NCBI GenBank assembly: GCA_027490225.1
Contig: JAIXYK010000048.1
Location: 1 to 38,508 of the forward strand
From: Bacteroidota bacterium
GTDB taxonomy: Bacteria > Bacteroidota > Bacteroidia > M30B66
Reading direction: 5' to 3'
DNA: 38,508 nt
Shown here: piece by piece, positions 37,865-38,508 of the stretch
Numbering within the stretch: the first letter of the stretch is position 1
How the letters are laid out: every line of letters starts with the position of its first letter
Notes under the pieces: model-generated
Database searches by the model: none
Seen by the model: the letters and a program-made list of their open reading frames with translations, nothing else
Told to the model about the DNA's origin: nothing
Position numbers and translations under genes: made by a program

Positions 37865-38069
37865 GTTACGTTTGGCAATTTCGCTGAAGGAATATTGAAA
37901 GAGAATTTTTTGAGATTAATTTGGGTGAAACTGGGTTTGATGCAATTTAATTTCCATGGGTCAAAAGCGAATGGTAAGTAATATTTGAATTTCGTTTCGT
38001 AGAGTAAAATTCATTTTACAAAATCTAACTTATTAGTAAATGTTATCTTCTCCTGCCTCCGGCGGCACG

Positions 38070-38096
38070 CTTTTCTTTTCAGGGGAAAAAGAAAAG
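38070..38096. repeat. Hairpin, 10-bp perfect stem
   Basis: CTTTTCTTTT and AAAAGAAAAG flank a 7-nt loop (CAGGGGA). It is preceded by the G+C-rich CCTCCGGCGG. The layout resembles the hairpin at 38465-38492. Confidence 0.6.
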
Positions 38097-38114
38097 GTGG
38101 AAAGAAAACCCTTA

Positions 38115-38271
38115 ACCGCTATTCAATATCATCACCCATTAATGTGCATTTCGCGGAAATTGAAAAAACTTGTCCGGTAAGGAATGTAAATGTTTATTTC
38201 CGGACTTCGAACAGTTTCCAATTTCTCGCTTCATTGCACATAATGGGTCCCGATGATATTCAATAGGCGGT
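38115..38271. repeat. Large imperfect inverted repeat (157 nt, 22-nt loop)
   Basis: The outer arms ACCGC-TATTCAATATCATC (38115-38133) and its partner at 38252-38271 match except for one bulge and one mismatch. The pairing then continues inward with ACCCATTAATGTGCA against TGCACATAATGGGT, GGAAATTG against CAATTTC, and closes with GTCCGG (38172-38177) / CCGGAC (38200-38205). The loop is 38178-38199. No open reading frame of note is inside. It has the form of a small nonautonomous element or a structured RNA. Confidence 0.75.
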
Positions 38272-38353
38272 ATGTAGCTTCGTAGGGGCAAGGCATTAGG
38301 GTAAGTGTAATTTTCATATTTCCTATATGCATCGTAGCGTTATCGAAATGTTG

Positions 38354-38453
38354 GAAGCTCCAGCAAGCTGAACGAAGGCTTTTCCGAAGTGCAGGCCTCG
38401 CGGGCTCTGGCGGAAACTGCCGAGTGGTCCGCAGGACAGCTCTTTGGAGCTTC
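38354..38453. repeat. Inverted repeat enclosing a G+C-rich block
   Basis: GAAGCTCCA (38354-38362) pairs with TGGAGCTTC (38445-38453), and after three or four unpaired bases AGCTG/CAGCT continues the stem. The enclosed ~65 nt are much richer in G+C than the rest of the window and contain smaller self-complementary pieces. Confidence 0.55.
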
Positions 38454-38464
38454 TTGACTTTTTG

Positions 38465-38492
38465 CTTCCTTTTGTGTCAAGACAAAAGGAAG
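38465..38492. repeat. Hairpin, 11-bp perfect stem
   Basis: CTTCCTTTTGT and ACAAAAGGAAG with a 6-nt loop (GTCAAG). It lies 11 nt after the preceding inverted repeat and may be part of the same composite unit, which runs to the window edge. Confidence 0.6.
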
Positions 38493-38508
38493 TCGTGCCG
38501 AAGGCAAA

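Follow-up and report, generated by a model that had tools for sequence, protein, structure and literature searches.

A long imperfect palindrome at a Bacteroidota contig end is half of a repeated, non-coding unit that apparently belongs to an undescribed kind of structured intergenic repeat

Near the right end of a 38,508-nt stretch of DNA from a Bacteroidota bacterium (the window) lies an imperfect palindrome of 157 nt, which had been proposed, from the letters alone, to be a MITE-like element, a REP-type unit or a structured noncoding RNA. Which of these it is, if any, is the question raised by this locus. The window is the entire contig C27 of a 66-contig draft genome (G000) and, therefore, the palindrome is located only 237 bases from a contig end.

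The predicted fold of the palindrome is a single, long and imperfect hairpin in which 57 pairs form. Its minimum free energy as RNA is −60.7 kcal/mol, compared to −30.7 ± 3.2 kcal/mol for 200 dinucleotide shuffles (z = −9.48), and none of the 200 shuffles folded as well. An inverted-repeat search, which is independent of the fold, revealed outer arms at 38119-38133 and 38252-38266 that are complementary at 14 of 15 positions. No gene-like ORF extends across 38115-38271, and Rfam gave nothing on the element, neither at the gathering score nor at a relaxed threshold. The original prediction was thus correct in coordinates and description, with a structure far beyond chance, in the lack of a reading frame and in the hairpins present on both sides. 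The compensating differences that it described within the arms do not hold: a single copy cannot show these, and AATATCATC/GATGATATT and GTCCGG/CCGGAC are plain perfect pairs.

A blastn search of the same genome found a second full copy of the palindrome (C65:29643-29833, 96% over 191 nt), and fragments of its right arm occur at least four times, twice on C55 and also on C60 and C39. The two full copies are the only ones in G000. Of their 157 positions, 3 are different; all pairs are intact despite these changes, and at one of the sites an A·C mismatch has become G-C. Two copies are too few to judge covariation. Both flanks have further copies, too: 38351-38508 is found again on C47, C60, C55, C29 and C65, and 38047-38116 on C60, C65, C39 and C29, and altogether six contigs other than C27 carry repeats of module A or B (Table 1). 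Copies are mostly at or close to contig ends, which is expected of repeats, since short-read assemblies break at them. In tandem, the order A-B-C-D-A is repeated about every 459 bp on C65, whereas on C55 the repeated unit is shorter (right arm-D-A) and has a period of 309 bp. The proposed multi-copy, dispersed palindromic DNA is supported by these copies, which exclude the case of a single, unconserved palindrome. The genes near the window copy encode an M16 peptidase and two DUF proteins; those near the other copies in G000 are ordinary, and no transposase was recognised among them by inspection. A short tandem repeat of TTCATTA is present at a contig end at C60:10500-10577. The 157-nt hairpin is real and non-coding, a DNA element that is repeated in the genome and makes up half of a repeat unit of about 450 bases.

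Table 1 Features of the composite unit in the window
Feature	Position	Strand	Basis
Module B: GC-rich palindromic terminus TGCCTCCGGCGGCACG, hairpin, A-rich linker, CCCT	38054..38112	+	copies on C60, C65, C39, C29
Module B hairpin CTTTTCTTTT-CAGGGGA-AAAAGAAAAG	38070-38096	+	topology by script
Module B CCCT, able to pair with the CAGGGGA loop	38109-38112	+	topology by script
Module C, 157-nt imperfect palindrome	38115..38271	+	MFE, z −9.48, genomic copies
Spacer D between the two palindromes, common to other copies	38272..38353	.	blastn map of copies
Half-A palindrome, arms 38437-38453 / 38354-38370	38354..38453	-	inverted repeat I2; fold z −3.9
Half-A pseudoknot-topology module CTTCCTTTTGT-CTTGAC-ACAAAAGGAAG-CAAAAA-GTCAAG	38451..38492	-	R1, 54 bits, E 1e-10
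Right terminus TGCCTTCGGCACGA, imperfect inverted match to 38054-38069	38493..38506	-	read from sequence

This composite unit spans 38054-38506 (about 453 bp). It has the palindrome as its left half and also occurs head-to-tail, with GGCA-AAAA-TGCC at the tandem junction on C65 and C29; the focal palindrome is not an isolated element. In half A, the loop CTTGAC can pair with the GTCAAG that follows the CAAAAA linker, which gives an interleaved (pseudoknot) topology, and the palindrome arm starts right at the module end. Among five genomic copies of this palindrome, two outer pairs differ in both bases (TCCA/TGGA versus TTCG/CGAA) and no counted cell is unpaired, although with n = 5 sequences this compensatory count is statistically weak and was reached by 20 of 500 shuffles. 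Module B lies directly upstream of the 157-nt palindrome, which begins 3 nt after CCCT. Its loop pairing comprises only 4 bp and it is not matched by the covariance model described below, but from its layout, which is the same as that of the half-A module, we infer that it is a divergent leading module.

The leading module is widespread. A covariance model of the 41-nt module (R1), built from 17 module sequences and containing the first helix only, matched 94 of 198 genomes of the class, in 61 of 120 genera, with at least 33 matches per genome in several of them. Matches extend to other classes (40 of 148 phylum-wide genomes in all). In 83 distinct aligned matches both helices covary: 96.7% of the cells are paired compared to 84.0% in shuffles, and 150 cells are doubly changed compared to 42.7 (reached by 0 of 500 shuffles), counts that are inflated by the relatedness of the sequences. 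The covariation score of the helices was 0.295 versus 0.072 for shuffled alignments, and all slid controls were far lower. The second helix, formed by the loop and the downstream motif and outside the pairs of R1, is nevertheless paired in 97.4% of the cells, with 21 doubly changed, although pairing had been a condition in the choice of the sequences from which R1 was built. A script scan of the fetched loci, which is biased since these were partly drawn in by BLAST, gave 143 structures of the module topology versus 3.3 in shuffles.

The apex of the focal palindrome is shared with G006, a relative from the same family (28 nt, 93%, E 1e-4), where it sits between two modules of the same topology with other letters; this contig (JAIXUS010000005.1, from an uncultured pond Bacteroidetes) is the only one among the genome contigs with the exact apex motif. 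Of 79 modules, 78 lie outside ORFs. Clusters of modules are found between ordinary genes, without cassettes or cargo, and inward-facing module pairs are unsupported as a general rule (17 of 102 downstream versus 13 upstream). Phages, plasmids and viral contigs gave no match to the element. In one locus (L119:2168-2243), a Flavo-1 RNA (RF01705) is located a few hundred bases from a module, elsewhere than on the element.

Is the module followed by a long palindrome in other genomes, too? Median fold z values were compared at 27 loci, which represent about the same number of genera: −2.9 for the 190 nt that follow the module, −0.6 for the 190 nt before it and −0.5 further on (paired Wilcoxon, p = 6e-4 and 3e-5). 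Of 108 non-identical loci, 43 have strong complementary arms that start no more than 40 nt from the module, versus 2 of 108 after mononucleotide shuffling; the median offset of the arm start in this set was 5 nt, and the best palindromes mostly span 125-170 nt, which is the size of the focal palindrome. The palindrome sequences are lineage-specific. In G099, whose copies begin directly at the module and have no TIRs, three copies show a compensated change from C-G to U-A in the outer stem. In G168 (L140-L159), about 20 copies of an element of about 240 bp with TIRs of about 19 bp (AGTGAAGTTTTCGAAATAA) were fetched, some in tandem and each with a module; it looks like a MITE. With the module inside a TIR element in G168 and free of TIRs in G099, the carrier differs by lineage. 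At the palindrome apices of L115, L103, L105 and L076, AACTCG...TCGAACAGTT or ACTCGCTGCGCTCAAACAGT is frequent and may be an apical motif that they share.

Pairing that is kept while the letters drift, in a dispersed, tandem-forming and non-coding structure, fits a non-autonomous repeat that is read as a folded single strand. The reading that we favour, with a probability of roughly 0.65, is that the palindrome is the left half of a selfish, non-autonomous repeat unit, extragenic and palindromic, about 453 bp long, in which the folded single strand is conserved. Each half would start with a short hairpin, the loop of which can pair with a motif on the far side of an A-rich linker; a long imperfect palindrome would come directly after this, and the halves would point inwards. 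The recognised entity would be the folded single strand, either ssDNA exposed in replication or RNA; spread and tandem amplification might then be brought about by an enzyme acting in trans or by replication or recombination on folded ssDNA, and any influence on the host, at transcript ends or in genome architecture, would be secondary. It should be kept in mind that compensatory change alone does not prove selection on the fold, since template switching between palindrome arms also produces it. Apparently, the unit belongs to an undescribed kind of structured intergenic repeat that is scattered throughout Bacteroidota; literature searches, including searches with sequence strings, in an open library that is not exhaustive gave no description of it. 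That all of these repeats are one phylum-wide mobile class, a folded strand with a 41-nt pseudoknot head and a long hairpin body that spreads via ssDNA or RNA and not by RAYT or IS enzymes, is a tentative extension that we consider rather less likely than not to hold.

The strongest competitor is a structured ncRNA or cis-regulatory RNA, in which module and long hairpin would be a pseudoknot plus long stem of a small RNA or 3′ UTR family. The pseudoknot-type covariation of two interleaved helices suits this part of the original prediction, and the neighbouring gene downstream points more often toward the element than away from it (46 versus 23), as would suit transcript 3′ ends. However, the lack of an Rfam match and of any fixed genomic neighbour speaks against it, and tandem arrays, fragments and lineage-specific palindromes are a better fit to repeats than to a conserved RNA gene; we regard an RNA gene or element as improbable. 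The same orientation bias would also suit an intrinsic terminator on the minus strand, where the sequence has a T-rich stretch after the long stem (e.g. GCC-TTGATTTTTTG). Yet, scanning the window end with a simple terminator search gave one weak match with 0.5 expected, and a terminator requires neither a palindrome of 150 nt nor covariation between a loop and a downstream motif, which makes this very unlikely.

If the unit were a classical MITE, it would be an internally deleted IS with terminal inverted repeats that is moved by the IS transposase. Imperfect, short TIRs can indeed be drawn on the unit, with terminal matches TGCCTYCGGC..ACG at both ends (TGCCTCCGGCGGCACG/TGCCTTCGGCACGA), and the G168 module lies within a TIR element; on the other hand, the G099 copies manage without TIRs. 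No target duplication is visible in the flanks on C27, C65 and C60, most copies being at contig ends, and neither an empty site nor a partner transposase was found: in the assembled genome, whose draft breaks at these repeats, no transposase has these ends and no recognisable one stands beside module A or B. The MITE-like nature proposed initially is thus supported only in part, by ends that can be drawn as imperfect TIRs, and a classical MITE is in our opinion doubtful, even more so than an RNA. Least probable is a REP/BIME-type element moved by RAYT (TnpAREP), perhaps of the Bacteroidetes subclass 2.6. A Bacteroidetes-specific RAYT subclass with atypical flanking structures, of which copies occur elsewhere in the genome, has been reported (PMC6006769), and RAYT genes are present in many module-rich genomes. 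However, a module was nearby in 0 of 14 RAYT-like loci, nine inspected RAYT flanks had either their own short inverted hairpins or none resembling the module, the sole RAYT of the window genome is flanked by CCCCGAAGGGG hairpins and not by the module, and G006 has modules but no Y1_Tnp match. RAYT as mobilizer was therefore rejected on the tested loci. A REP-type unit in the strict sense, as originally suggested, does not describe the element either: with 157 nt plus module it is much longer, it has no adjacent RAYT gene, and a REP foot (GTAG or CGTC) is absent from its ends by inspection.

As for the RAYT genes themselves, the one of G000 (C62:89062-89406, L071) is a single RAYT/Y1_Tnp gene between CCCCGAAGGGG and ACCCCTTCGGGGTT hairpins, which are probably its own REP family; similar hairpins occur near element copies on C60 and C39. 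The RAYT-like proteins of L200, L201, L202, L206, L209, L211 and L212 have about 150-196 aa, resemble subclass 2.6 and share the motifs NHVH/NHLH/NHIH or SHIH, WQ or similar, and YIHNNP/YIHQNP; several of the genes lie between short inverted hairpins of their own.

Knowledge of extragenic palindromic repeats is good for Proteobacteria but, as far as the searched papers show, poor for Bacteroidota. Two interleaved, covarying helices in about half of the sampled genera, often followed by a long palindrome, are a concrete and searchable class definition, and repeats of this class would account for the contig breaks of this lineage. It also raises the question of what reads the fold and moves it.

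The attC sites of integrons are long imperfect palindromes that are read as folded single strands. The palindrome described here is similar in shape, and a folded single strand would be read as well, but by inspection of 38100-38290 its arms lack RYYYAAC/GTTRRRY boxes and there is no cassette array; an integron-like array was rejected, the tandem copies being without cargo and the clustered modules lying among ordinary genes. Like the bacterial MITEs of Cardinium (PMC9769881) and P. gingivalis (PMC4596501), the unit is short, non-coding and multi-copy, with ends that can be read as imperfectly inverted; unlike in these, neither a target duplication nor a partner IS was found and the ends differ among lineages. 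It shares with REP, BIME and REPIN that palindromic repeats lie outside genes and can be arranged in tandem or as inverted pairs, but REPs are 20-40 bp (PMC3733652), whereas here a module of about 41 nt is combined with a palindrome of roughly 125-170 nt and RAYT is not adjacent. RU elements, intergenic repeat units of enterobacteria, are covered in PMC2759123. The unit is a long imperfect palindrome, intergenic, multi-copy and non-coding, as expected of an ERIC-like element. ERIC sequences of enterobacteria are imperfect palindromes of more than 100 nt, intergenic and dispersed, with no known transposase. In all of this the unit resembles them and the enterobacterial intergenic repeat units; it differs in phylum and presumably in sequence, and a pseudoknot-topology module stands ahead of a lineage-specific palindrome. 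In how it works, the element comes closest to ERIC-type intergenic palindromes and to BIMEs, but it lacks the defining features of REPs, and no MITE hallmark was demonstrated.
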